Shown in pieces: positions 5,431-49,447 of a DNA stretch of 64,000 nucleotides (position 1 is the first letter of the stretch; each line of letters starts with the position of its first letter). Position numbers and translations under genes: made by a program. The stretch lies in contig NC_080589.1 of assembly GCF_029962835.1 (NCBI RefSeq), positions 18,125,586 to 18,189,585 on the forward strand, in the 5' to 3' direction. This stretch comes from Magnolia sinica (lineage: Eukaryota > Streptophyta > Magnoliopsida > Magnoliales > Magnoliaceae). The notes beneath the pieces were generated by a model. The model did not search any database. It saw nothing but the letters and a program-made list of their open reading frames with translations, and had not been told where the DNA came from.

Positions 5431-7054
5431 TTTGTTAAAATAAAGTTGTTTTAACATTTACAATTAATTAAACTCAATTTGATCAAGTCAAGATGACCCA
5501 ACATTACTCCTTAAATTCAATTTGAAAATCAACATGGATTGTCGATCAATGCAGTTGATCGATCGAGCCAGCTCGACGGCCTTCGATTGATCTCCTGATC
5601 GATCGATTAGGGATCGATAAAATTTAGAATTTAATGCCTCAAGTCTCTAAACAAAATTGGTCATCTACGATCAATCGAACCTACCCATCAATCGATCGAA
5701 AATGGGTATACTCGATCGATTGGCATCGCCTAAGGAGACCCTTGATCGATCAAACCTAGATTTTGATCAATCGCAATATAGCACAATTTTAAACTTTGGT
5801 TTCTTGACAAAAATTGACAAGTTCGATCGGTCAACCAAAATTTGATAGGTTCTGTTACACAATTCGATTAAAAAAAAAAAAGGGTTTCTCTTCTTCTTCC
5901 ATAATTTTGATGAATTCCATTGATCTCGAAATTGAGTTCAACCCATCCAATGATTTTTACTATCATCGAATTCGGAGTAGCTAAAGGATCACTTGGATCC
6001 AAAACATCAAGAATCTAGATTTGATGTTTGAAAACTGATTTTTGACATAACTATAGTTATCTATACCATACGTAGATCATTGTGAAAAATTCCTCAGTCA
6101 AATCACTCTAGGGTTTGAAGTCCTAACATGGTTCGGCTTTAGGATCATTTAATTTAAATCCTCCTAGACTGATATGGCTGGGTTTCTCGAAGTCTATCTT
6201 CTATATTATAGAAACTACGCGAAAACTGTTTTCTCTTCCACAAAACTTATCCATAGGTTAATCCTCAATGTCCATTGATTAGATCTATGATTTTTGGATA
6301 GAAAAATTACGAAAAATTAAAGGAAACATTGATGAAACTTACCCGCGGAGACTCCTCTTCATATGGCTTCTCTCTCTCTTTGGGCTACTCTTAGGTTTAT
6401 GATTTTCTGTAGAAATTTCTGCGGTTTCCACCTTTATATAAAGAAAGAGCCTTGAATCTAAAAGATTCCACAAATGTTTCGTGGAATTTAGCAAAAAATA
6501 ATATCCTATGAACTTAGAGTAAATCCTTTAACCTATCCCTCAATTGAGAATACTCTTACCAATTGGGCTAAATGTTTAATTTTATTAATAACTACAAAAT
6601 TAATTTATTAATTTGGTTAGTCTGAATTTTACTCAAGTCTAAAAAATCACGGTCGTTGAACTAGCGTAAGGTATAAATATGGTGGGTATAAGACATGCAT
6701 CATCATTTTTTTTTTACACACACCCACGCACTCACACCAAGTAGTTTTTAACCACAAAAGCATCATGGTGGTCTCCACAAAGGCTCATGTTACCGGAAAT
6801 TTCCCCATCCATTTGAACCAAGCATGCAATGGATGGTGCAAAACCCAGAAAATCGACCAAAGTGAAAGCAACCACTTCGCCCTCATGAATGCAGCACCTG
6901 TGCTGAAAGCAACCACTCTGCAATTTTCTTCTTTCATTGAGGCCAATAAACTGTATGGTACAAAACATAGTTCTAGACTCGGTACTTTGACTTGAAACTC
7001 AGTTGAGTCAGATCGACTCAAACCTATTCTTATGTTTTATTCATGCATATCTTT
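5431..7054. other. Non-coding stretch with TCGATCGA-rich part
   Basis: No supported gene. At 5,545-5,850 the motif ATCGATCGAT and variants recur about ten times, a pattern common in plant LTRs. At 6,430-6,440 the minus strand has TTATATAAAGG, a possible minus-strand LTR promoter. Small open frames near 6,765-6,995 exist on both strands but match no family I know. Confidence 0.5.
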
Positions 7055-7488
7055 GAGAACTGCTCTAGTTCTATCAGGGAACTGTAACTTATAGTACTGC
7101 TTCTAGCTGCATCAGTTCAGTTAGACAGTTCAATCGATTAGTGATCAATCAGTACTGTACATTAAGTCTATAAACACATTTCTAAGGTTACCTTATAAAG
7201 ATCTCACAAATCCCATCATCCAATCCATCCCTGCTGTGGCCTTATTTTCCTTGGTCATCCCTTTTCCAAGACATGGGATGGATACTTGTTGAATAGACCT
7301 ATTTTTGTTTGAATGATCTTGACTGTCTATATTAAAGATCATTGATAAAATGGTTAATATTTTTCAAATTATTGGACCTAGTGAACAATCTATATCAATG
7401 GATTGGATAGTCCAAGTGGCCCAAAATAAATGAATGCAATTAGGAGCATTATAACTTATATTGCTATAAGATCACTTCAGCATTTCTC
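7055..7488. mobile_element. MITE-like element with imperfect ~50-bp inverted ends (copy 1)
   Basis: The left end (GAGAACTGCTCTAGTTCTAT...) and the reverse complement of the right end (GAGAAATGCTGAAGTGATCT...) match imperfectly over about 50 bases and share TAACTTATA-type blocks. Nothing inside codes for protein. A related sequence lies at 19,462-19,935. It ends 27 bases before the CACTA element. Confidence 0.5.
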
Positions 7489-7539
7489 TACAACTTGTTA
7501 AAATATTTATAAATACACTACAACAACTGGGAGATTTAC

Positions 7540-7800
7540 CGGTGCTCCTAAGTGCCGCTAAAAGCGCCGGAAAATTTAATAGTGGCGCTAACCAAGCACC
7601 GATAAATGGGTATGTCGGGAAAAGTATAGGCGGCGCTAGGTGAGCTTTACCGGCGCTTGTATGACGCCAATAATTGCAGTTTTTAGCGATGCGAAAAAGC
7701 GCCGCTAAAATTCGCTCCGAGCGCTGGGATAAATTATTTCTGAATACTTTTTCTCATGAAAAAGCGCCGTAAAATTTCTACACAAACGCCGCTAAAAGCT
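7540..7800. repeat. CACTA 5' subterminal repeats
   Basis: At least five copies of GCGCCGCTAAAA or close variants (for example near 7,552, 7,583, 7,700, 7,763 and 7,787) occur in both orientations. CACTA transposases bind such subterminal repeats. The right subterminal region has fewer copies. Confidence 0.7.
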
Positions 7801-8024
7801 TTTGTATAGATTTAAGAGGCCTTAGCATGCCAGTAATTTTTTTTTATTATATATAATTCAATCGAAACCTGTATTTTTAAAATATTTGAAACATAAAAAT
7901 GATGCCATACAAATAAAACTGAATATTAAACAAATTTTACATTACTGGACAATAAAAAAAATATAGTATTTATTACAATACATATCTTCAATTTGATGAG
8001 TTGGCTAAAAAATATTAATGTTAA

Positions 8025-8714
8025 TTGATAACTAATATAGCAAATTTCCTTCACTTGAGGGTTATCTGGGGGCCTTATGCCATACAAATATCTTGCAATT
8101 TGAGTCCGAAGATCTGCTATGCAAATAAACTTCTTCAAAATGTTCTTGGGCATGATGTATGTGTAAGCCTGTCTCCTGTAATCAGTAATTACTCACATAA
8201 GTTCAGTTTCCAGAACCTTGAAAGTTAAAAAGTGCGTACAATGGAAAATAACCATAATTATTTGCCTTAATGTCCTCAGTGTTCACATAAATATGATTGA
8301 CTCTAAGATATAGATTCGTCGCTGAGATTGCTCTTACACGCCAATCAGTTTTAGAACCAAATGCTACTTGCTCATAGGGGCTTGTTGTGGTGACAATGAG
8401 TTCATCACCGTGCACAATTGTTGTCCTTGTTGTGACTGCTATAAGTTGGCTTGCTTCTTTTTACCTGCACATGAAGATTTGCTAAAGATTATTAGCCAAG
8501 TGAAACCGGCAAAGAAGCTTCTCAGCTTGATAGACTTTTATTAAACACATCACCTGCTTCTCAATCTCCGTAATCTGTTGCCTCTGTTGTAAAGTGGAGT
8601 TATCTCAGCCCCCAGTATTATATCACGAATTTCAGACTGTGTCAGTGCCAAGGTGTTTACATTATTCTTCTTGGCATATTTTGAGAGTATAAGATCTCTC
8701 AGAGCAACCTCAAC
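8025..8714 (-). pseudogene. PRP8: Captured Prp8 gene fragment (three exons with introns)
   Basis: Three exons of the spliceosome core protein Prp8 can be read in order on the minus strand. Exon 8,554-8,714 gives [19 protein letters not shown] and [14 protein letters not shown]. Exon 8,266-8,464 gives [25 protein letters not shown] and [20 protein letters not shown]. Exon ~8,025-8,175 gives [15 protein letters not shown] and [14 protein letters not shown]. The piece covers the region leading into the Jab1/MPN domain. Introns are kept: acceptors TGCAG and TTACAG and a GT donor are present, but the second donor is GC. It is broken by a 1-base deletion after AEITP, a 1-base insertion in exon 3 (GGCTTACAC) and a shift at the start of exon 2. 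The rest of the gene is absent, so this is a genomic fragment taken up by the CACTA element. Confidence 0.9.
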
Positions 8715-9066
8715 CTGCATTGAAGGAGATATTAGCAACTCTCATATATGAAAATTAAGGTAGCAATCACCAGTTCTACTTCATTTCACACCATGTAACA
8801 GCTATTGGGTCTATCAACACATGATAGACAATTGTATACTGTCTCGTTGGGGTTAATTCCAATAGGGAGCTACAAGATTTGAAATGTGTAAATTTTCCTA
8901 AGTATGCATGTACACATTAGGGTATATGAGCATTCATGAATGTATGCATCTAACAGTCTGCGTGCATCCAATAGCATCTTTTTTTAATGTTCCAACCCTG
9001 TAAGGGGTGTGATCAATTTAATAGATAAGAAATACCTAGATGCGGGCCATTCCTAGTAATTTTCAA

Positions 9067-9105
9067 ACAACAACAACAACAACAACAACAACAATAATAA
9101 TAATA
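9067..9105. repeat. (CAA)n / (AAT)n microsatellite
   Basis: About nine CAA triplets are followed by four AAT triplets. It lies inside the CACTA element. Confidence 0.9.
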
Positions 9106-9837
9106 CTGGCCCAATTCCTTTTATCCGTGAGATACTACCTTGTATGTACTTGGATGCAAGGACACAAGAAAGGAGACGCCAAGAGGACGGCGTTAGTAAT
9201 CTCAAGAGTCAAGATTAATGGCAGAGAGCAGACTTATTTAACTAACAAAAGTATGAATGTGGGTAGCATTTATTTCCTTTAGAAAACATGGATTTCTTTG
9301 GTGTCAAGAATCGTAAACAGCAAAGAAAGGTTGAGAGAATGAATACATGGGTGCGATACATTACGCTATAATGATATTTAAAACATGGGGCTCTAGTACC
9401 ATAAAACTTACAAAGAAAGGTTGAGAGAATGAATACATTCCTAAAGTTGTATACAAATACAAACTACAAAAACAATGACTGCAATACCATTATATACACT
9501 AAATGTCTAAACTACCTTCATATAAAATACTATGTAAATATAGAACCTTATATTACAAAGAAAACAAGACCAATCTGAGAAAGAGAAAACATAAGAATAT
9601 GCATGTTTTATTTCTCGAGTATTGTGTATGTGCTAAAGATCCAGGAGCAAAAATCAAGTACACCTACGAGTAAAATCCAAAAACTGAAGACAGGAACAAA
9701 CATAAGATACATAAACCAAACAAATCATCACAATCATCTTAAGCCTCTCTCCTAGGCAGTTCAAAAAAAAAAAAACCCTACTAATTGCCACACTCGCATG
9801 AGAGCAACAAGCTATTGCTAGAATACATCCATATACA

Positions 9838-9936
9838 TCATAGTGATGGGGCAAGAGCCAATGCCTCTGCCTTAAAAAGGAGCTTCTCTAATTTCTCAAT
9901 TCATAGTGACGGGGCAAGAGCCAATGCCTCTGCCTG
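9838..9936. repeat. Direct repeat of ~36 bp, 63 bp apart
   Basis: 'tcatagtga(t/c)ggggcaagagcc' and the following 'aatgcctctgcct' occur twice, with one mismatch over about 35 bases. On the minus strand both copies can be read as QAEALALAPSL followed by a stop, so the repeat may be a duplicated end of an exon from an unidentified gene. Confidence 0.7.
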
Positions 9937-11217
9937 GTCAATCAATCCATGTGCTGTAGAAAATGATGCCTGACATCCTCCTCACCACTCATTGTTTCCT
10001 GCCTGGCCCAAGTTCCCATCTGAGAAACCACTGTAAATTAAGCTTCCCACAACCTGTCGGGGAAGGAGACCAAGTAGGTGGCAACCTTTCCCACTGTCCT
10101 TGGCAATCACTGCATGATGTTAAGTAGCTGTAAATGTGAGGAAGCTAAATAATAATAATAAATAAATAAAACAAGGAGATATCCAAGAGGTGAATCATCA
10201 TACATGTGCCAACATGACACATTTATGTGACATCCTTCATCAGGTTGATCCCACCAATAACATTCCAGGCACAAAATAATGCTGGTCTACTTATTGATGG
10301 GCCATGGAATCTAGATTGCTAGTCATTTTCTTTCAGATGATCCATATTCACCACATGCATGTGGCTAACCATTAACTAGATAAGTGGACCAACATGACTT
10401 TAGGCCAGGATATGATTAGAATGTTCCCCACCTAGTGACTAGCACAAATCTCAAGGGCATGTGCCCAAATCACACATTCAACCGTCCTAGCATTTCTCAT
10501 TGAAAACACCTGCAACAGGCATTTTTACATAAAAACATCAATCAATTACTCAAAAAAAGGAAAAAGAAATAAAAGAACATCACCAAATCAACTAGATTTG
10601 CTTAATACTAGGCTGATAGAAAAGCATTACTCAGTAAATAAAAACAATTCAAAAGAAATATTTAAAAGACACTCAATGAGAAAGAGGATAGATGTCTTAC
10701 AGAGATAGCCCCTTCTGCACAAAAGGGATGAGCCTAACACAACCGAACTGAATTCCCAATTCACGAATATCCAGCGTCGTCCTACAACACCATCAGTAGT
10801 TCTTAAAGGGCACAACTTCATTGCATTACAGAAAACAAATCGAAGCATCTTTCTTTTTCAAAAACCCAATTTGAAATACTTGTCAATATTCCAGTCCACT
10901 ATCATGTTCCACATTGAAGAAATGCTTCCCAATCATGTTCCACATTGAAGTAGCATGTAGCTAACAAGGTACAGATGGTGCCCTAGCTAAAAGCATGTCC
11001 CCTTATTTGATACATAGAAGTTCCCTTCATTATTATACCATGCCCAGAAGCTGACCCTACTAATTATTAACAAGCTGGAAGAAAAAAAGAAAATATACCA
11101 TGGTCTGATTCAAGAATGTCATGTAGTGTTAGCATACCTATCTGAGTAGTTGGTGATATTGCATGAGAAAGTTACAAGTTTGAATTGCTCTTATATATAG
11201 AATGGTTGGATATTCAC

Positions 11218-11531
11218 CTCAACATCTTCAGATTCAGCTGCTCCCAGGGTCTTTGGCTGTCCAACTCCATCAGCCTTTCTTCCAACATTGGGTTTAACTG
11301 ACCCACTTTTTTTAGTGACTGACTGAAAAAAATACACACAAGTCCATTAAACTAGACAGTAGATATCATGAGTGCTTTTTTCCACTCAAGAGTAGACCAC
11401 CATGATGAAGTGCTTGCAGAATTATAATTTGAATTGATTAAAAGGAAAAATGAACTCACTGTTGGGTGGACGGGCCTCTTTCCACTAAGCATGCTTGCTG
11501 CTGATCTTCTCACAAATGAGCTTTCTGCAGC
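11218..11531 (-). pseudogene. MOR1: Captured fragment of MOR1/GEM1 (XMAP215-type) gene, two exons
   Basis: Two small exons with good splice sites lie on the minus strand. Exon 11,460-11,531 gives SFVRRSAASMLSGKRPV and is bounded by GCAG and the donor GTGAGT. Exon 11,218-11,322 gives VTKKSGSVKP and then AAESEDVE, bounded by TTTCAG and a GT donor. Joined in phase, they resemble the low-complexity linker of plant MOR1/GEM1, the TOG-domain microtubule polymerase of the XMAP215 family, where SMLSGKRP and EDVEPAEM are familiar to me. No stop or shift is seen in these 59 codons. The rest of the gene is absent. The match rests on memory of a linker region, so it is less certain than Prp8. Confidence 0.6.
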
Positions 11532-11559
11532 CTGCAAAGTGATTAACCAAGAGCATCAT

Positions 11560-14400
11560 CAGTTTTAATGCAATTGATATACTACCCAACATAGAGAACA
11601 CAATTGCTTACTACACTAAGTGCCAGAACGAGAAATTGGAGGCAAACAGAGAATATAATTTAGGAAATTCTGATTTTAAAAAATTTCTTACTGTAGTTAC
11701 TGGATGATGAAATGGATGCCAGAAACAGGAAACAAGAAACTAGGTGTTTGAGACAAAATGGGTTCCTTCAACCATACAAATGACATGAAGGGTTGTAAAC
11801 CTTTTAGCAAAAGAATGGGAAAAATATACCATTATCTGTAACTTACCCTACCAATGTTACAAGCTTCTACAACATGTCCAGAATAGGCTTGCCATTCAAA
11901 TATATGCATGCGCGTGTACATATATATACACATACATGAAAAAGCTTATGATTTCAATGACAAAAGAAAGACCTGATAAGGAACTAATCAGGATGATGAA
12001 AAATAAGAAAGTATTTGCACGCAGAAGCCTGAAGAAGGAACACTCATAGCAACACAATGTAGCAGTTGCTCTAAAAAATCAGCCAATTCCATGACAAAGA
12101 TCAACTAAATAAGACCAATAAATTCAAGCATTGGGTATTACAATAAGAAAATAAAATTTGAAGCTTCCAGTCAGCATCTCCCTGCTAGACTTTAGCAAGA
12201 GTGAGAAGCAAGACAACCAATATTCCAAAACATGGTAGGAAGTTAGGGTAACGGTTTCTATTTCAGCTGTATTATTTGGGCACTCACATATGCCAAATCT
12301 GGATTCAGATAGCATGGATATGTTTTTCTAATTCAACTACACCAGTTCTTATTTACTAAGTACAAGATATCATTTAGGTTTTTTACCAAACAAATCATTA
12401 GCAATCTGCATCTATGGAACACAACAAGCATCAACATTGTGGTGTTCTTGTGTTCCTTCTCTTCAATCAACGAACATTCACATTAGGTGGGTAGCTGGTT
12501 TTAAACTTTTGCCAAACAATAATCACAAGAAATCCTCTCTCAAATCTAGTTGGTGAAACAAGGTGCTTAACACCAATAGCAAATGGCTTGGACAATGCTA
12601 TGATGAGGACAGTGATTGACACAAAACTGGAATTCCTTCTTTGCAAGAGGTTGAACTTAGTTTTCTTCTTCTTTTTAATGCCAACATAATTTTATTAGGA
12701 AAACCAAAAACCAAAAAACTACAAAATGAACTTGGATTGGTTGATAGTGAGTGGCCCTCTTGTTCTTCTCTAGTAGCAAAACAGCACCTCTAGCTAGCTA
12801 GCTTTTAGCAATATGGGGGCTATCCCTGTGAATTTGGAGCCCCACCATTGACAAAATTAAGATGAGGTTGTCAAGCCTAAGCACCAGCCTCTGAACAGAG
12901 GTATCTTTTGCCTTAAAAAATCCTAGCATTTCCCCCGTTGCGTAGAAATCACAGAGCATGAACTGTCATGCTCCAAAGAATGTGACCATATGACCCCATG
13001 TCTCCATGGACCAACTCTCTATTTTATGTAATGAAATCTCTATGGAAGAACACTTCCAAATCCAAAACGACTCCTCTTTAAAAACTTTCCTATAAGGCAT
13101 AAGAATTTTTTTAAAACACAATGAAATGCCTAAAATCCCGTTTTGAAGCATTTGTGAAACCCTTGTGAAATGTTTATGAAATGTAAGAGAAACGCAAGTG
13201 AGTTGTTTGTTAAAAGCAAGTGAATCCTTTTCCACCATTCCACTCTATCGAGGTTTGAGTTTCGAATGATATTTTAATATCATTCGAATACATGTTGGCA
13301 AGTGCCCTGATAGTGCCCAATCCAGTCAGACAAAAAAAAAAAAAAGAAAAAAGAAAAAAGGTTTGCATGCTAAAATATAGCATCTGTATGCATAGCAGTT
13401 TGTGTATAGTAACCTATTTGCAACTGTGTATGCAGCTGTTGAAATCCAGGTTACACATGGTTTTGGCAAGTTTATGGATGTTAGAACTCTTTAATGTAAA
13501 TATAAATGCATTTAATGAAAGACAATTTGCATGTGTGATATGAAGTCCAACCACTATAATGCAACAAGAGCTGCAAAGATATAATTGTTAAATATTTAGG
13601 CATAACATTTACAAGAAAGGATGGGATAGTTCATGAGCATGGATTATGCTTGACATTTACCTATATTTTCTCAAAACAGGGGAAGCACATCAATTAAAAT
13701 ACTTAAGAAAGAAAGAAAGAACTACAATTCATCAAGCAGAATGTCACATGGAGTTGAATATTAACATGCAACAGGGCAGCTGTGGGCACATGTACTGTAA
13801 GTATGCCATACAACCATCCAAAAGGTTGATCCAATCATTGGGTAGGGAGGCACCAAAAATCAGGCTGACCCAATCATCATGAGGACTATGCCATAGATAA
13901 GAATCAACAACAACTCGAAAATTCCAATTTCATGTTACTTGGAATCATTGACCTGATACAGATATTCATGGTATCCTCTGGCATTCAGTTTATAGAAATG
14001 GGCCCACAACAATGCAGATGTTCATCTCATGGGTCCCAGTTTAAATGGACCATGTCCCAGAAGTCGTACAGATGGGAAGATCCTAGCCACCCAATCTTTG
14101 GCATTTTCTCGGTTTAAATGGAGACTGTTGCCATATTTCTTTTCATAGCTGCCTCAGGCCAGCAATCAAAGAGCTTTGGATCCCCCATCAAAGTTTCATG
14201 GGGAAAGGTCTATACAGGGTGGGTCCATTAAATGAATGATCTTGATCACCCAAACATCTGGCCTGCTTGTGCAAAATGACCCATGCATATTATGCAAATT
14301 GGATGTTCATATTGCCAAGTGGTTTTCTTCTGGTTACTCTAATAATGGAGTTGTTGGGGTATACCAAAAGTTTCAAAGGATAACAACTAAGTTCACAAAT
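11560..14400. other. CACTA interior without identified gene
   Basis: This is AT-rich non-coding sequence. It contains a poly-A tract (about 13,330-13,360), a 28-bp palindrome (13,261-13,288) and, at 13,780-14,230, text of the 'gggcccac' repeat type shared with other parts of the window, which suggests small insertions within the transposon. Confidence 0.5.
13261..13288. repeat. 28-bp palindrome
   Basis: TTCGAATGATATT is followed by TT and then its exact reverse complement AATATCATTCGAA, giving 13-bp perfect arms and a 2-base centre. Confidence 0.85.
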
Positions 14401-14414
14401 TGCTTGTTTTACAG

Positions 14415-14519
14415 TGGTCAGCTTACGTTGTAGATGGGAAGGTTAAGGTTCTTAATGTTTAGAAAGTCCCTTCTGAATTCAAGGTTTCTGGTGGAGAGGT
14501 AATCTTGGGTCAGATTTAA
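14415..14519 (+). pseudogene. PRXIIF: Captured last exon of mitochondrial peroxiredoxin IIF
   Basis: After a clean acceptor (TTGTTTTACAG) the plus strand reads WSAYVVDGKVKVLNV, stop, KVPSEFKVSGGEVILGQI and then TAA. This matches the C-terminus of plant type II peroxiredoxin F, a mitochondrial thiol peroxidase whose family ends in VILGQI. The catalytic cysteine lies in earlier exons and is not present. A TAG at 14,460-14,462 replaces the glutamate codon expected there, so the exon is dead. Its strand is opposite to the Prp8 and MOR1 pieces in the same transposon, so the fragments were captured separately or rearranged. Confidence 0.85.
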
Positions 14520-14757
14520 CTTGTTTGAATTGCTACCTCTTCTAAATGAGATATATTCTTCCAGTTTAACGAAATAGTGGCGGTATGAGTTCTGCCCTTT
14601 TAACAATAACATCCATTTTATGTATTCCATTTTATCCACATTCTACTTGACACGCAATACTTCTTATCTTCCATGTTGGGAAATAAATTCTGGTATATGA
14701 CAGTTTTCTCTTCCTATTCCATTCCCATGTTGCCAACTTGCATTTTCCTTGCCTTTA

Positions 14758-14893
14758 GGACCCGTTTGGACACAAACTCCAAAAAAGCATTTTCCTGCAA
14801 AATCGACTCTGAAAACCAATTGGCTTTTTAGTGCCTTTTTCATCAGGTGATTTTGAAACCGGCGATTTGGCATGGGTTTCCAAACGGGCCACA
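14758..14893. mobile_element. Small MITE-like element
   Basis: GGACCCGTTTGG at the left and CCAAACGGGCCA at the right form imperfect terminal inverted repeats about 136 bp apart. Ends of the form GGxCCCGTTTGG are common in plant hAT-type MITEs. It is nested inside the CACTA element. No clear 8-bp target duplication was seen. Confidence 0.45.
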
Positions 14894-15299
14894 AAATAGG
14901 GTTGTCTACAAACAACTGTTTGGACACACGTAGTCCAAACAAACCCATAGTCTTATTAGTTTCCACAGATGAAAAATGGATAAAGAAAAAGCATCTTCTC
15001 ACTTGAATTTTCTGAAATCCAAACCCTAGTTCTAGATCTAGTAAATCCCCACCATAACCAGTCAAAAAACCTTGCAAAGTGCAGAAAATAGATCCAAAAC
15101 CCTAGGAAACAAGAGAGTAGTAGATCTAGATACCTAATGGGTTATAAAACTGCAAATCGAACAGAATTCAGATTGAAAAACTCCACCGGTCACGAAATCC
15201 AATAGAATTCAGATCGAAAAACTGCAAATCGAAGTATTGAACAAATCAGAACTGTATCACACAACAAATCGTTTCTATGTATTCGCATCAAACAACATA

Positions 15300-15375
15300 G
15301 AAAAATCCCTAATTAGGGTTTTAACATAGTAAATCCCTAATTAGGGTTTCAACATTGTAAATCCCTAATTAGGAA
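15300..15375. repeat. Three copies of a ~30-bp direct repeat
   Basis: 'gtaaatccctaattaggg' with a short spacer occurs three times in a row near the right end of the CACTA element. Confidence 0.75.
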
Positions 15376-15454
15376 ATCACTAAGGTTGAAATTAATGAAA
15401 TCTAGAGTCTTACCTGTTTCAGATCTTCATCTAAGCCCTAAAATTAATGGCAGC

Positions 15455-15540
15455 TCGCGCGAGAGAGAGAGTCGGGGGTAGGAAGAAGCTGAGAGTCCCG
15501 CGAGAGAGCGAGAGTCGGGGGTAGGAAGAAGCTGAGAGTC

Positions 15541-15575
<35 letters not shown>
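15455..15575. repeat. Duplicated 'gagtcgggggtaggaagaag' unit plus (GA)n
   Basis: A ~42-bp unit containing GAGTCGGGGGTAGGAAGAAG occurs twice and runs into a GA microsatellite of about 16 repeats (15,543-15,575), all inside the CACTA right arm. Confidence 0.85.
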
Positions 15576-15577
<2 letters not shown>

Positions 15578-15834
15578 GGGAGTGAAATGGAAATCGCGTC
15601 CTGTTTTTAATTTATATAACATCCATGGCCCGCATTTAAATAGCGCCGGTGCATGATGCACCCAAAGTGCCTGTTTTTCACGATTTTGTTGTAGTGATAA
15701 TAAATCATTTAAGCATTAAACATCGATTCCAGTCAAGTAAAGACTCGTCCGAGTCTTCGACTCAACCCAACTCGGCAAGATATTGGGTCAAGTCGAGTTG
15801 AATTTTCAAGTTTTCGAACTATATGGTGCAAACA

Positions 15835-18508
15835 CTAGAATTTGGTACAGTCGGCCTTGGCAAAAGCAACCAATTCCTTATCAAGGTCATAGCCCACAAT
15901 GCGATTTTGCTGTGCTAGATTTCCTAAGATCGAAACGTCAGTGGTCGGCTTCATGGCCAGGCAATATATGCCGCGATCTACCTCTGTGTAGGTCCCTATC
16001 TTGGGTAGAACTACATCGGCTCCGGTGAAATGAAATGTTATGTCTGGTGTGACCTCAAAGTCATTGATCGAATTTACATAGTAGCACAAATGAAGTCTTC
16101 CGTAGGGGTCCTCAGCCGGGTCTAGAAATATTTCATCATCCAATGCACTGATTAAGGCATCGAGACCTTCCTTGAAGAGGAGTGTGTATGTTGTGCCCGA
16201 GTCGACTATGAATCCTCCCTCACCCTTCTCATTGGCATGGAATAGTCCTTCTTTGATTGGTAGCCGGTTATTCCCGACGCTGATGCCGTCAAGACTGACA
16301 TGGTAAAACTCTTCTTGGCCCTTAACCTGTTGATCAAAAGATTCAATGGTGAAAATGATGTTTTCCATGATTTCTTAATGGCCCCACTTTTGTGGGGGCA
16401 TTTAGCTCAAAAGCCACATTGATAGGATGATCCTAACCATGGAGTCAGATGTCGAGCCTAATCCAACAATCTATCCTGATGGGGCATATGCTCAACAAAG
16501 AATGTAGGGAATTAAATAGGAACCTCAGAAAATGCTCACTTCAGCACCCCACTTGGGTGTAACTGAGAGGATGGACTTGGTCGTGGCAAGGGCTCTGTGG
16601 GCCCCACCTTGATCTACGTGTTTTATCCACACGATCCATCCATTTTAACAGACTGATTTAATTAGGAATGAGTTCAAAAAGGAGATAGATCCAAGGATCA
16701 AATGAGCCACACCACAAGCAGCAGTTGTGATAATGATGCCACCATTTGAAACCTTCTTAGGGCCCACCATGATGTTTATTTGCCATCCAACGTGTTCATA
16801 AGATCACATACATTTGGATGAAGGGAAAACACAAAGTTCAGCTTGATAAAAAACTTCTGTGCCCCCAATAAGTTTTCACTTGTACACATTTAATCCTCAT
16901 CATTTCCTGTGGTGTGGCCCACTTTAAACCTAGATCTACCTTCTTCTTGTGCTCATTCTTTAAAATGATCCGTTAAAATGATGAACGGCATGGATAAAAT
17001 ATATATATCAAGATGACCCTACAAAACCTCACTTATGAAGTCCTGCTGGGATAGGAAGCGGTGCCAATGAAAAAGCTCCATGCATGCACATATATAATGG
17101 GAACTCAGTATAAGCATAAAATCTTCATTTCGTGCTAGAAATATTCACTATAGGTCCTGTGCCTATACATGCACAGGTAGCACTTCTTCATTTGCCAGAC
17201 ACAACCTACATTTTCCATGGTTGGTTAGGAAATAGGTACCCAAAATAGATGTTTACACAACAGGGAGTCATACACAATCAAACACATGAGCACAAGTGTT
17301 ACAACGTGACACTTATGTGGGATCTAAGCTTTCCATCGGCACAGCTACACACTTAGTTTTTTGGAATAAAAATGAGCAATTTTAGACCTTAGGTGGATCA
17401 CACCGCCGTTACCTTGCTCACTAGTTAATAAAAATGCAGTATTTTTAGGTAGAAGATGTAAGCATTATTTCCAACCTCGCATGAAAACTCATATCTCACG
17501 CATGTTTCACAGCACCTGTGACCGCGTGTGAATGTATATAGCTTACACACGTGTGGAATTGCATACATGTATAAGTTAACATGCATGATGTGCATGGTCT
17601 AGGGTTTAACGTGACAAAAAAAATAAAAAAAATAAAAAAATAATTAAAAAAAAAATCTTGATACAAAGCATTACCTTTAACATCTGTGTAAAATTGCCTG
17701 TAAGTTGAGCTTGCTTTCCAAAAAGGATCTTGCTCCAGGTTTTCAAATAATAGAATGGAACCAAGCAATAGGAGAATTTAAGGGCCCCTATCTGCCTAAC
17801 AAACGAATACGGATCCCTGCTGAGGCCCACCAAACCGGCCTCATCTTCGTCGTAGGCTCCGGTAATTTCATGGCCACAACCGAAGATGATGCTTTCAAGC
17901 GTAATGTTGGGACCGTTGGTATCCTCCAAGATGAATGCCTCATAAGCAGCGTCGCCTTCCGTCACTGCACCATCCCCAAATGTCTCCTTGAATATGCAGA
18001 CATTAGTGTTGGGCTTGCACGAGGCGGTGTACTCGACCTCACAAAAAATATTGCTGCAGGTAACCTTGTCGAACGTCACTGACCTGGAAGGGTCGAATAG
18101 GGGCTGATTCATTTCATAACATTCTACGCAAGGCTCACATTGAACCCACAACAACGAGCTGCCTGAGTCGATGATGGCCCACCTCTTAATTGGGGGTGTG
18201 CCCATATAGAAGCTCATCACATACTCACCTAAAGTGGGCCGAAGAGGGGCGTTTGGGACATTGATTGATGATGATCTTGATTGACGTGACTGGAAGTAGT
18301 GGAGTCGGGAGTCGGAGCGGCGGTGTGCGGCCATGGTGCGGTCATGGAGAGATATGGTGTTTGGGTTGTAGAAGGGGGAAAGTGGGGAGTCATGATGGAT
18401 GAGGCCGGCCGAGAAGCCGATGTTGGCATGTGGGTGTGATGAGAGGGAAGGTGGGACGTGGATGAGGATGATGAAGAGTGCAACTATAGTGAACGTGGGT
18501 GTATGCAT
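15835..18508 (-). CDS. CDR1/nepenthesin-like secreted aspartic protease, two exons
   Basis: Exon 1 (17,675-18,508) and exon 2 (15,835-16,326) join in phase, with donor AAG|GTAATG and acceptor TTTGATCAACAG, to give 441 aa; CDR1-type proteases are about this long. Residues 1-24 form a signal peptide. Residues 31-48 (GFSAGLIHHDSPLSPFYN) match the CDR1 prosegment. The first catalytic site is IIDSGSS (D114), followed by the cysteine-rich nepenthesin insert (WVQCEPCVEC, residues 121-130). The second site is IVDSGTT (D320). The C-terminus has SILGNLAQQNRIVGYDL. The flap reads TFGDG where YGDG is usual, so the flap tyrosine is phenylalanine here. N201 and N272 are possible glycosylation sites. CDR1 relatives act in the apoplast in defence signalling; a similar role here is inferred. 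The 1.35-kb intron holds a MITE. No stop or shift is seen. Confidence 0.85.
16585..17030. mobile_element. Long-inverted-repeat MITE in the protease intron (family M1)
   Basis: The left arm (CTGTGGGCCCCACCTTGATC, then TTTTATCCACACGATCCATC) and the reverse complement of the right arm (GTAGGGTCATCTTGATATAT, then TTTTATCCATGCCGTTCATC) pair imperfectly over about 80-100 bases. The interior has 'gggcccaccatgatgttta', shared with the copies at 42,606-43,043, 43,077 onward and 62,680-63,130. It is non-coding. Confidence 0.6.
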
Positions 18509-18547
18509 GGAGTGAAGCTAGGAATAGGGAAATGGGAAGAAAATACA

Positions 18548-45513: not shown

Positions 45514-47298
45514 TCATGGGATCTCCACTTGTATAAGTTTGGTTGCCGACACTAGCAGCTCATATATTAGGCTCAGCCCCATTCCCTTCGATGTATCATT
45601 GACTAACCTTTTATATAGTCCTTTAGTCAGAGGATCTGCTAGATTCTTTTCTGACCTCACAAAGTCAATAGATATGACTCCATCACGCAACATATGTTTC
45701 ACTATGTTGTGTCTGAGTCTAATATGCCTGCTCTTTCCATTATATATTTTACTCTTTGCTTTCGCTATAGCTGCTTGACAGTCACAATGAATAGATACGG
45801 CCGATACAGGCTTTGGCCACAATGGTATATTAGCCAAGAGATTTCTAAGCCACTCGGTTTCTGTTCCAGCCTTTTCTAAGGCAATAAACTCGGATTCCAT
45901 AGTAGACCGAGTGATACATGTCTGCTTGGTAGACTTCCAAGAGACTGCTCCTCCACCTAAAGTGAAGACATATCTACTCGTGGATTTTGTCTCATCTGAA
46001 TCACTAATCCAGTTAGTATCACTGTATCCTTCTAATACAGTAGAAAAACCATTATAATGTAAACCATAGGCTATACTGCCTTTTAGGTATCTCAAAATCC
46101 TAGACAAAGCATTGCAATGCTCTTTTCCAGGGTTATGTGTATATCTACTTAGCCTTCCTACTGCAAAAGCAATGTCTGGTCTAGTGCAGTTTGTTAGATA
46201 CATAAGGCTACCAATTATTCTGGAATACTCTAATTGAGACACACTATTTTCTGTATCCTTTATGAGAGTCACACTATAATCATAAGGAGTACTGACAGGT
46301 AAACAGTCAAAATGGTTAAACTTTCTCAATATCTTCTCAATGTAATGAGATTGAGATAATATAATAACACCATTTTTTCTGGTTACTTCAATACCCAAGA
46401 TTACATTAGCCTCTCCTAAGTCTTTCATGTCAAACTTAGATGACAAAAATTTCTTAGTTGTATTAACTAATTTAATATTAGTTCCAAAAATAAGCATGTC
46501 ATCAACATAAAGGCATATAATAACATAATCATTTTCAGAAATTTTACTATATACACATCTATCTACATCATTTATATGATAACCATTTGATTTTAAAACA
46601 CCATCAAATTTTTCATGCCATTGTTTAGGAGCCTGTTTTAAACCATATAATGATTTAATTAGTCTACATACTTTATTTTCTTTTCCTGATATCTTATAAC
46701 CCTCAGGTTGTTCCATATATATTTCTTCTTCTAAGTCTCCATTTAGGAAAGCTGTCTTTACGTCCATCTGGTGTACCACCAGTTTATATATGGAGGTTAT
46801 CGCTATTAAGACCCTGATAGTTGTAATTCTAGTTACAAGAGAATATGTATCAAAGTAATATATTCCTTCTTTTTGTTTAAAGCCTTTTGCTACCAACCTA
46901 ACCTTAAACTTATCAATAGTCCCATCTGGTTTTAGTTTCTTTCTAAACACCCATTTACAACCTATTGGTTTATTTCCAGGTGGTAGGTCTACAATTTTCC
47001 AAGTGTTATTAGATATAATAGATTCTAACTCATCATTTATTGCTTCCTTCCAAAAGGTTGCATCTGGAGAGTTAATTGCTTCTATATAGGTTGTAAGATC
47101 ATCTTCTACTAAGAAAGTGAAAAAACCATCTCCTAGGTTAGTTTCTCTTCTAACCCTAATACTTTTTCTTGGTTGTATCTCTTCTACTACTTTCTCGTAT
47201 GCATTTTTACTAGTAGATGCAATATCTGATTCATTGACTTTCTCTATTCCTATAGATTTAGATTTCAATAGGGAATATGTTCTCAAAGAACTCTGCAT
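45514..47298 (-). pseudogene. Copia-C pol, reverse transcriptase and RNase H
   Basis: An open frame of 594 codons. RT starts at about residue 80 ([13 protein letters not shown]), with [20 protein letters not shown] (~188-207), [16 protein letters not shown] (~228-243) and the catalytic [11 protein letters not shown] (~275). RNase H follows ([19 protein letters not shown] ~470, then SRHIRLRHN, and LADPLTKGL near the end). RT copies the RNA genome and RNase H removes the template. All catalytic blocks look complete. It is joined to integrase by a 1-base shift in the overlap at 47,258-47,298; the ATG counted here is internal to the polyprotein and not a real start. Confidence 0.92.
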
Positions 47299-49447
47299 CC
47301 CTAGCTTCTATAATTGTATTAGGATCTAGAATATTATTCTTAGTTTTTAAAACTAGAAACCTGTAGGCCGCACTATTTTGTGCGTAACCTATAAATACAC
47401 AGTCGGTTGTTTTAGGACCTAACTTTCTTTTCTTAGTTTCAGGTAATCCTACTTTAGCAAGACACCCCCACACTTTAATATATTTGTAACTAGGAACATG
47501 ATTCTTCCATAGTTCATATGGTGTTTGTTCAGAAGATTTAGAAGGAATCCTATTTAGAATATAACAAGCAGATAGAATTACTTCTCCCCACATATTTGAG
47601 GGTAAGCCTGAACTATTTAACATAGCATTCATCATCTCTTTTAGAGTTCTATTCTTATATTCTGCTATTCCATTCTGTTCTGGTATATAAGGAGCTGTAG
47701 TTTCGTGAACTATTCCATTCTTTTCACATAATTCTCTAAATTGAGAAGATTCATATTCACCTCCTCTATCTGTTCTAAGTCTTTTAATTTTTATATTTAA
47801 CTGATTTTCAACTTCAATTTTGTATTTAGAAAAAGCATCTAAAGCTTCATCTTTGTTTCTTAATAGATAGACTCTAGTGAACCTAGAGTAATCATCTACA
47901 AAAGTTATGTAATATCTTTTTCCACCTCCAGACATGTAATTTTTAAAATCACCTAAGTCACTGTGTATTAACTCTAATAGGACAGATGATCTTTCTATTT
48001 ATTTAAAGGGTTTTCTAATGAATTTTGATTCGACACATGTTTCACATTTGTCAAATTCTTCATTAGATATATTAGGTAATAAACCTAATCTTTTCATTTT
48101 CTTCAAAGATGCTATATTCACATGACCTAATCTACTATGCCATAGATAAAAAGTTTCAACGATATAAACAGAACTGAATGTCTTCTTATTATTATCATTG
48201 GATACATTTATAATGAATAAACCATCGCTACAGTACCCCTTACCAACAAAAGTTTTATTCTTAATCATTACAAGCTTATCTGAATCAAATACTAACTTAA
48301 CACTAGCCTTATTGAGGAGTGAACCAGAGACCAAGTTTCTTCTAATGTCGAGCACATGTAGGACATCATTCAACATTAGAGTCTTTCCAGAAGTAAGTTT
48401 CAGAAGTACTTTCCCTTTCTCTACAATTGGAGACGTTCTAGCATTACCCATGAACACCTGTTCATCATCTCCTGATACTTGGTAGGAGGTAAACATGCTA
48501 CGATCCTTGCACACGTGCCTAGTTGCACCAGTGTCTAGTACCCACTCCAAGTTGTTTACAAGGAAGACTTCTGACACCACAGCTACTATCATGTCAGACT
48601 CATTGCCTGTTTCTGTAAGATTAGCCTGCGGTTTATCTTTGTTTTTCTTAAGCCTGCAGGTTTCGACATGATGCCCAAGCTTTCCACAGTTGTAGCAGTT
48701 TCCCTTTTTCTTAAATTGATTGTTTGCATTCTTCTTTTTGAGCCTGCATTCATTTGCATAATGTCCAGGTTTGCCACAGTTATGACAGTTGCCCTTTTTC
48801 TTATTATTTGCCCGACTTAATTCCACAAGATTCGCCTTTGAATCTATCTCATTTTTATTTTCTTTTTGGTCCCTGATTCTATTGGCCTCCTCTGTTCGTA
48901 TGTGTACGATAGTGGTTTCCAAAGAAACACCGTTCTTTTTATGTTTCATTCTATTCTTATATTCTTTCCAGGAGGGCGGTAACTTTTCTATTAGTGCTCC
49001 TGAAAGAAACACTTCATCCAACTTAATTCCTTCTGTTGATAGTTCATGAACTAAACTTTGAAAATCATGAATCTGATTTATAACAGGTATATCGTCTGTC
49101 ATTTCATAATGAAAGAAATTAGCAATTGCATGTTTCTTAGCGCCTGCATCTTCTAATATGTATTTCTTTTCCAAAGCAGTCTATATGTCTTTAGCAGACA
49201 CGTAAGAAGCATACACGTCATATAATTCGTTGGATAAAGAATTTAGAATATAATTTTTACAATTATTTTCATCTGTTAGTTCAGTTTGATTTGCTGGATC
49301 TATAGTAAATGATTCAGATAAAATGTATGAAACTTTCAGGGTGGTCAGAGCGAACATCAGTTTCTGTTTCCACCGTTTAAATGATTGTCCAGCGAACGGT
49401 TTGATTTTGGCTAACTCAGTAGAAGCATTTACTGTTACTGTAGCCAT
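47258..49447 (-). pseudogene. Copia-C gag, protease and integrase
   Basis: Starts MATVTVNASTELAKIKPFAG at 49,447, 33 bases from the 5' LTR. Gag runs to two zinc knuckles, CHNCGKPGHYANEC and CYNCGKLGHHVETC (about 48,650-48,800), so RNA binding is doubled compared with the common single knuckle. Protease: WVLDTGATRHVC (~48,540). GAG-pre-integrase: YLWHSRLGHVNIASLKKM. Integrase: FVDDYSRF, RTDRGGEY, and PEQNGIAEYKNRT, which carries the catalytic E (47,640-47,910). Three lesions: TAG at 49,178-49,180, TAA at 47,999-48,001 and a shift near 47,280. Confidence 0.92.

Follow-up and report, generated by a model that had tools for sequence, protein, structure and literature searches.

Gene fragments in CACTA elements and the Magnolia locus

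DNA transposons that capture genes are already known. The closest kin of the element described here are Tgm-Express1 of soybean and Tpn1 of morning glory, and the element belongs to a known type. Tgm-Express1, the CACTA element of the soybean wp allele, is 5.7 kb long and carries five gene fragments, which are spliced as cassette exons (PMC1947982). For the Tpn1 family of Japanese morning glory 339 copies have been found, which with one exception have 3-bp target-site duplications (TSDs) (PMC5105172), and maize Pack-CACTA elements often combine coding DNA of several loci (PMC8903248).

The window, a 64-kb stretch of Magnolia sinica DNA on C17 analyzed as a whole, contains a non-autonomous CACTA element of 8,181 bp at 7516-15696. 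Like Tgm-Express1, it carries exon-intron pieces of several unrelated genes (PMC1947982), but its cargo is different. The isolated Tgm-Express1 transcripts began at the host F3H promoter (PMC1947982), whereas the Magnolia element has a putative promoter inside one of its own ends. As in Tpn1, conserved ends enclose an interior swapped for captured host sequence; Tpn1, however, has 28-bp terminal inverted repeats (TIRs) and subterminal repeats of 122 and 104 bp (PMC5105172), in contrast to an inverted match of 11 bp here, and the common arm of the Magnolia family, unlike Tpn1, bears a Prp8 fragment. CACTA ends, a TSD and gene fragments in place of a transposase are also the features of the Pack-CACTA and Pack-TYPE elements of Arabidopsis, maize and rice, although the rice and maize CACTA elements of one study had 5-nt TSDs (PMC8903248) and the Magnolia element has one of 3 bp. 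The TIR starting with CACTA and the 3-bp TSD place the element among the CACTA (CMC/EnSpm) transposons; the lack of a transposase match, the fragments of genes found elsewhere in the genome and the multiple copies with conserved ends place it among the Pack-CACTAs. An earlier note on this DNA correctly took gene capture by CACTA elements as known but thought the three-gene combination undescribed; multi-gene capture by CACTA elements is already in print (PMC1947982, PMC8903248). Among the papers listed for CACTA and Prp8 together, none was evidently about capture.

The element is very probably a gene-collecting Pack-CACTA of a large family, for which we infer serial capture and exchange. It has complete ends and cargo, sisters with all or part of that cargo, relatives whose cargo differs, and loci that are candidate donors. 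The exon shuffling is of a known kind, visible here in unusual detail. A single genome supplies the common arm, the cargo groups, the sisters, the donor candidates and a MOR1-bearing element without the Prp8 arm, and the order and ages of capture and the exchange of ends can therefore be reconstructed.

Ends and coding content of the element

The TIR is a perfect 11-bp repeat beginning with CACTA, CACTACAACAA, located at 7516-7526 (plus strand) and 15686-15696 (minus strand), which are the 3' and 5' ends of the element, respectively, under the orientation argued below. Beyond 11 bp both ends differ. These are the only two exact matches in the window, and with one mismatch allowed the sole internal match is at 8382-8392, inside a Prp8 exon. 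Simulation of 60 windows under a Markov-1 model gave a mean of 0.05 such 11-mers per 64 kb and not one inward-facing pair. The copies of the ATA TSD are at 7513-7515 and 15697-15699. These ends and the TSD, along with a full-length sister copy (L020), bear out the single 8,181-bp element that the earlier note had proposed. Subterminal repeats of the GCGCCGCTAAAA type are clear on the left, where 7552-7797 holds five of the six matches (at most two mismatches) in the 64 kb; the right end has only isolated GGCGCT-type motifs. The terminal 18-mer has no exact match among viral contigs.

As had been claimed, the element has no recognizable transposase: none was matched in Pfam across its six read-through frames or in PDB from the five frames other than plus frame 7517. 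No intact transposase source was seen among the relatives, one of which (L003) has only a piece, a Transpos_assoc match at E 4.1e-4, under the curated cut-off. None of ten single open reading frames (ORFs) of the element could be assigned to a gene through Pfam, and no Rfam family reached gathering score anywhere in the window. The CsoSCA_C match among the single ORFs (E 0.09) is a chance match, and we also take as chance the PDB matches to cystatin-like chains (E 0.25 and 0.33) and, at E 0.14-0.96, to SpaR, two maltose-binding-protein fusions and an scFv.

Captured pieces and their donor candidates

Three minus-strand exons of Prp8 lie in the left arm: a piece of exon 1 (8554-8714), exon 2 (8266-8464) and a truncated exon 3 (8043-8175), with best PDB E-values of 3.2e-15, 1.5e-29 and 7.2e-20. 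The window copy has a 1-bp deletion in exon 1 relative to three sisters, an extra base in exon 2 at 8458, opposite which at least 14 of the 18 aligned copies have a gap, and an extra T in exon 3 at 8165, which it alone has in the alignment. The splice donor of exon 2 is GC in the window and translates as GT in L001, L008 and L017, the three other copies with frames printed. Over 18 sequences, divergence at the three codon positions is.068/.052/.055 in exon 2 and.049/.043/.047 in exon 3, and.050 in the intron. The Prp8 exons diverge about equally at all codon positions and are therefore not coding. The earlier note placed these exons correctly, but they are not private to the element, as the left arm is common to many copies.

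An exon of ORC6 had been overlooked; the three captured genes that were claimed stand, but their number rises to at least four. This exon, the start of the second cyclin-like domain, lies at 10701-10781 on the minus strand with an open frame, AG before it and GT after it. It matches Pfam ORC6_2nd at E 0.0048 in a blind six-frame scan and, taken alone, at E 1.1e-5 and 26.3 bits, just missing the curated cut-off of 27. The surrounding block (10147-10905, minus) is shared at 94.2% identity with the ORC6 gene on C4 (L025), where further ORC6 exons flank the matching block on either side; this gene is a likely donor candidate.

The last exon of peroxiredoxin IIF (PRXIIF), with its stop codon, is on the plus strand, as reported, at 14415-14519 (E 1.2e-7 to mitochondrial peroxiredoxin 2pwj). 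It has an in-frame TAG in the window copy and GAG in three sisters. The block at 13931-14941 (plus) matches a PRXIIF locus on C14 (L023) at 95.4% with sharp edges, which makes that locus a likely donor candidate; no upstream PRXIIF exons were seen there.

A third block (11176-12476, minus) is colinear with a gene on C15 (L022), with introns about 79% identical over ungapped columns. It contains exons A (11460-11531, 24 codons) and B (11218-11322, 35 codons), both minus-strand with AG/GT edges, which we tentatively take to be MOR1-like from their sequence. The next exon of the C15 locus presumably resembles MOR1 as well. Exons A and B have no match in Pfam or PDB; the further exon has nothing above chance in Pfam (DUF1707, E 0.007, is a chance match) and nothing in PDB, so the MOR1 name stays tentative. 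A literature search with the peptide of a MOR1-like exon found no paper. The colinear locus helps the putative MOR1/XMAP215-like assignment of the earlier note. The C15 gene is a likely donor candidate, but the block could come from a lost paralogue instead of an old capture from C15.

The MOR1-like, PRXIIF and ORC6 pieces lie away from their donor candidates: the window is on C17, and the candidates are on C15, C14 and C4. More than one capture event, previously argued from opposite strands, is upheld on other evidence than strand alone: donor identity is about 79% for the MOR1-like introns versus 94-95% for ORC6 and PRXIIF, and the ages of capture therefore seem unequal.

Family copies and probable exchange of ends

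A genome search with the left 685 bp, including Prp8, gave 43 matching stretches, counting the window; some are two pieces of one copy, and 40 of 722 candidates were scored. The 20 copies fetched were those that matched best and had a nearly complete left end, with one partial copy passed over, and since they were picked by left-arm similarity, their sharing of the left arm is partly by design. Twelve of the 20 have complete ends, with a 3-bp TSD at the right end equal to that at the left, and seven have no matching right end within the stretch examined. L020 is full length, yet its flanks, TTG and AAA, are unmatched. With these 20 copies examined, the claim also survives the check for copies with other termini.

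The complete-ended copies sort by eye into six cargo groups. The window cargo is present in full in L020 and with deletions in L017 and L004, the latter without the ORC6 block; pairwise divergence among sisters with this cargo is 4.1-5.2%, and L020 is 94.3% identical to the window element over 8,281 columns. Other groups carry pieces of AMP deaminase, SNF2, MAP70, metallophosphatase, C13-peptidase and cytosine-methylase genes. Over the terminal 89 bp, left ends are.787 identical within and.791 between cargo groups, and right ends.857 within versus.655 between. Left arms alike across groups and right ends unlike indicate that ends and cargo have been reshuffled. Groups D, E and F have similar right ends (.78-.90), so there are fewer right ends than cargo groups.

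An ancestor may have gained the end of a Prp8 gene beside its left end and been mobilized by the transposase of other CACTA elements. Serial repair or rearrangement would then have inserted intron-containing blocks of 0.8-1.3 kb, the MOR1-like block long ago and those of ORC6 and PRXIIF more recently. The composite probably amplified afterwards, and family members may have swapped ends and cargo blocks. Hybrid formation, in which two adjacent elements mobilize together and take the intervening DNA (Catoni et al. 2019, whose Pack-CACTA model is outlined in PMC13317346 and PMC8903248), is possible but doubtful as the only process. It would account for one left arm joined to four or more distinct types of right end (groups A, B, C and D/E/F), and for L024, which has the MOR1 block at 96.8-97.9% but a related left end without Prp8. 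However, the cargo blocks have their matches on three other chromosomes, no internal CACTACAACAA end separates them, and small internal blocks are more easily explained by template-switch repair within the element.

The promoter-like right end and the orientation of cargo

The right end is promoter-like at 15414-15618 on the minus strand, with TATATAAA at 15618-15611, a CT-rich leader and a splice donor (CAG/GTAAG) after 15414. A CT-run of at least 14 nt is present at the right end of all 14 complete elements and a TATA-like box, 79-119 nt inside that end, in 11 of them. The leader donor occurs in only two, the window element and L017; it is lost in L020, and the other 11 have none within 420 nt. 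Transcription from this end would read the Prp8, ORC6 and MOR1 pieces in the sense direction and PRXIIF alone in antisense. The suggestion of antisense RNA against Prp8 is set aside because Prp8 would be in sense to the promoter-like end, on the minus-strand reading. Some captured exons retain AG/GT at their edges, and the promoter-like end, leader and donor may, judging by sequence, give rise to transcripts spliced to the exons on the minus strand. Such transcripts would carry short ORFs only (the longest in the modelled spliced RNA has 55 codons), so that if they have a product at all, a non-coding or silencing-related one is likelier than a protein.

Across four elements the cargo is sense to antisense 10:2 (p = 0.039), or 8:2 (p 0.11) without the two weakest matches. 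The count includes RPL35Ae (E 0.0019, under the curated cut-off) and excludes an Atrophin-1 match (L011, plus strand, E 0.012, judged low complexity). The sense bias is a lead, not a result; if it holds in a larger unselected sample, orientation filtering of such elements becomes testable. It is conceivable, but unlikely, that the family is a directional exon shuffler, in which standard 5' and 3' cassettes flank a slot that loads host exons kept mostly in sense. The 5' cassette would consist of the promoter-like box and CT leader, plus the splice donor in some members of the window's cargo group, and the 3' cassette would hold the Prp8 end, with host exons exchanged among family members. Many composites would then yield exon-trapping RNAs from one promoter design.

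That selection maintains the captured exons as a new chimeric gene is highly improbable. The AG/GT edges of the MOR1 and ORC6 exons, the promoter-like end pointing along the same direction and the 10:2 ratio are consistent with it, but the similar divergence of the Prp8 exons at every codon position, the frameshifts and stops, the 55-codon limit of the modelled RNA and the missing ORC6 block of L004 argue against it. An assembly artefact, or TIRs that match by chance on either side of nested gene fragments, has solely the unmatched flanks of L020 in its favor and can be dismissed, being refuted by full-length and near-full copies of the element's interior elsewhere, with TSDs of their own in 12 of the 20 family copies and no inward pair in the simulated windows.

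Ends and cargo of the window element

The 64 kb scanned contain just two perfect matches to the 11-mer CACTACAACAA, one at 7516-7526 and the other, inverted, at 15686-15696. ATA flanks the element on either side, so that, as the earlier note proposed, these repeats bound a single element of 8,181 bp. In 60 simulated windows, 11-mers of this kind occurred on average 0.05 times per 64 kb, and no inward-facing pair was seen. Five of the six matches to a subterminal motif in the whole window lie within 7552-7797. No transposase was found inside, either by Pfam in six frames or against PDB in five of the six (the plus frame at 7517 being left out), in agreement with the earlier note. The stop codon of an aspartic protease gene (TAXi_N and TAXi_C domains, 15835-18517, minus strand) is about 140 bp from the element end, and long open frames at 45514-49180 (minus strand) resemble, by eye, a copia-type retrotransposon.

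The element carries three minus-strand exons of Prp8 (PDB E 3.2e-15, 1.5e-29 and 7.2e-20), the last exon of PRXIIF including its stop codon on the plus strand (E 1.2e-7), and two further minus-strand exons, with AG/GT at their edges, which we take to be MOR1-like, a name that database matches do not support. The three genes listed earlier are thus retained, MOR1 under a tentative name, and a fourth is added: an ORC6 exon at 10701-10781 on the minus strand, edged by AG and GT (Pfam E 0.0048 in a blind six-frame scan, 1.1e-5 for the exon alone). Two short near-perfect duplications lie between cargo blocks, at 9321-9438 (28 bp, spaced 90) and 9838-9935 (35 bp, spaced 63), and are possibly repair filler.

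Over 18 sequences (copies L007, L010 and L018 dropped), the codon positions of Prp8 exon 3 diverge by.049/.043/.047, those of exon 2 by.068/.052/.055, and the intron by.050. Since all positions and the intron diverge similarly, the Prp8 exons have no sign of protein constraint. The PRXIIF exon of the window has a private TAG where three sisters have GAG; an extra T at 8165 and a deletion in Prp8 exon 1 are also private to it among the aligned copies.

Published cases of capture by CACTA elements place the window element in an already known kind. In maize, Pack-TYPE elements frequently contain several loci, those of the Pack-CACTA type the most (PMC8903248), capture is reported in Chenopodium CACTA (PMC8978399), and hybrid formation has been described (PMC13317346). 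Closest in design is Tgm-Express1, a 5.7-kb CACTA element with five gene fragments spliced in many combinations (PMC1947982), whereas splicing is here only predicted from sequence; closest as a family is Tpn1 (PMC5105172). What stands out here is that arms, cargo groups and donors are on record for a whole family within one genome.

Copies and cargo groups

The 1.84-Gb assembly (127 contigs, the window on C17) contains at least 43 stretches matching the left 685 bp of the element, window included, some of them two pieces of one copy. Scoring covered 40 of 722 candidates, which leaves room for a larger family. Twenty copies (L001-L020) were fetched as the top matches with a near-complete left end, one partial match being passed over. 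Eleven have a right end (one mismatch allowed, within 10 kb) and a target-site duplication (TSD) equal to that on the left, and L003 is a twelfth once 8 kb more is read. The genome self-search suggested earlier therefore yields 12 of 20 copies with matching right ends and their own TSDs; these are 6.3-12.0 kb long. L020 has a right end, too, but its flanks do not match (TTG/AAA). For L002, L004, L006, L008, L010, L012 and L015 (7/20), the stretch examined shows no matching right end; L004 and L015 have right-arm sequence farther out. L003 (with L021) measures 12,012 bp, has the TSD AAT and carries on its minus strand a piece of a transposase-associated domain, the closest thing to a transposase relic among the copies seen.

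All-against-all comparison beyond the left arm, sorted by eye, gives group A (window, L004, L017, L020), B (L002, L005, L006, L009, L018), C (L013, L014, L016, L019), D (L003, L008), E (L007, L011, L012) and F (L001, L015), with L010 alone. The boundaries are blurred: L007 is the sole link between L011 and L012, and D, E and F have stretches in common. The left arm (7517-8199) is common to 20/20 copies and 8526-9039 to 9/20; sharing up to 8200 follows from the choice of copies by left arm. Within group A (pairwise divergence 4.1-5.2%), L020 matches the window throughout, while L017 and L004 carry deletions and L004 is without the ORC6 block.

Ten ORF stretches from other groups, picked by eye, were run against Pfam; two matched no family, and the matches include P5C reductase (weak, E 0.0077), metallophosphatase, MAP70, a CRM domain, C13 peptidase and LRR. 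Pieces of AMP deaminase, SNF2 and cytosine methylase are also present by Pfam. L011 combines pieces of a C13 peptidase and of a cytosine-5 DNA methylase (Pfam E 4.3e-6) with one of a CRM-domain gene in antisense; in L013, the SNF2, AMP deaminase and MAP70 pieces matched by Pfam share the minus strand. In L010, a YRFRLGYRLRFRDLSLGYRF-type peptide recurs in three ORFs (6528-9739), like a tandem array.

Candidate donor loci

The MOR1, PRXIIF and ORC6 pieces lie away from their donor candidates, which are on C15, C14 and C4, the window being on C17; the earlier note had named a position at the parental loci as contrary to capture. For ORC6 all nine candidates were scored and three fetched. The C4 gene matches only 10147-10905 (94.2%) and has ORC6 exons to both sides; four of its ORF stretches match Pfam ORC6 families (E 2.5e-4 to 2.3e-6, two below the curated cut-off). 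The other two, L026 and L027, appear to be additional elements carrying pieces of ORC6. All five PRXIIF candidates are accounted for by the four group A copies and a C14 locus at 97%, which matches 13931-14941 only (95.4%, sharp edges). Its last exon is uninterrupted; no upstream PRXIIF exon could be made out over the 5.5 kb examined. MITE-like inverted ends at 14754-14895, within the PRXIIF block, are present at the C14 donor too and so probably came along with the capture.

The MOR1 stretch has 13 candidates, every one of them scored: six are near-identical (window among them), one on C15 is at 77%, five match 11461-11580 alone at 96-98%, and one is a 36-bp piece. The C15 locus is colinear with 11176-12476 (BLAST pieces of 76.6% and 68.8%) and continues into another MOR1-like exon. 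Over ungapped columns of a local alignment, identity is.797 and.785 in introns,.899 and.867 in exons, and.881 in a 42-column downstream piece. Judged by these identities, ORC6 and PRXIIF diverge from their donors about as much as sisters do from one another, and MOR1 much farther; the MOR1 block would be either an older capture or one whose donor has been lost. A MOR1-block copy lies about 0.56 Mb from the C15 candidate (G000:C15:29838544 and C15:29274251) and could bear on local capture.

Probable exchange of arms and a promoter-like right end

The 89 bp inside each end were compared among 14 complete elements (the 12 copies, L020 and the window). Left ends are as alike between cargo groups (.791) as within them (.787); right ends have identities of.857 within groups and.655 between, against.58 when shuffled. 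Those of D, E and F are mutually similar (.78-.90), so that the right ends fall into about four kinds. A higher rate of change on that side is rejected as the cause, since group A right ends are more alike than the left. On the left-arm tree, end branches have a median of 0.038 and inner branches are short; cargo groups cluster beyond 200 shuffles, and only B forms one side of a branch. Among five partial MOR1 matches, L024 has a left end 81.5% identical to that of the window, with likeness ending before Prp8, and a MOR1 block at 96.8-97.9%; its right end was not found in the stretch examined. The query 15000-15420 has at least 48 matches (40 of 374 candidates scored). Six of the matches listed span the whole query and most others have one part or the other, so the right arm is a mosaic as well.

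A CT run of 14 nt or longer occurs at the right end of all 14 complete elements, and a TATA-like box 79-119 nt in is present in 11/14, both counted without a control set. Together with the minus-strand transposase piece of L003, these features lead us to take the right end as the putative 5' end. In the window it would lead to a putative splice donor, CAG|GTAAG at 15414, aimed at the MOR1, ORC6 and Prp8 exons in sense; this donor is found in 2/14 complete elements (window and L017). The longest ORF of the modelled spliced RNA is 55 codons. Scanned in six frames, the window together with L009, L011 and L013 gives ten genes in sense and two (PRXIIF, CRM) in antisense, with Prp8 counted once, MOR1 under its tentative name, Prp8 and PRXIIF by PDB in the window only, and an Atrophin-1 match omitted. 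The bias (p = 0.039; 0.11 without the two weakest genes) is a lead only.
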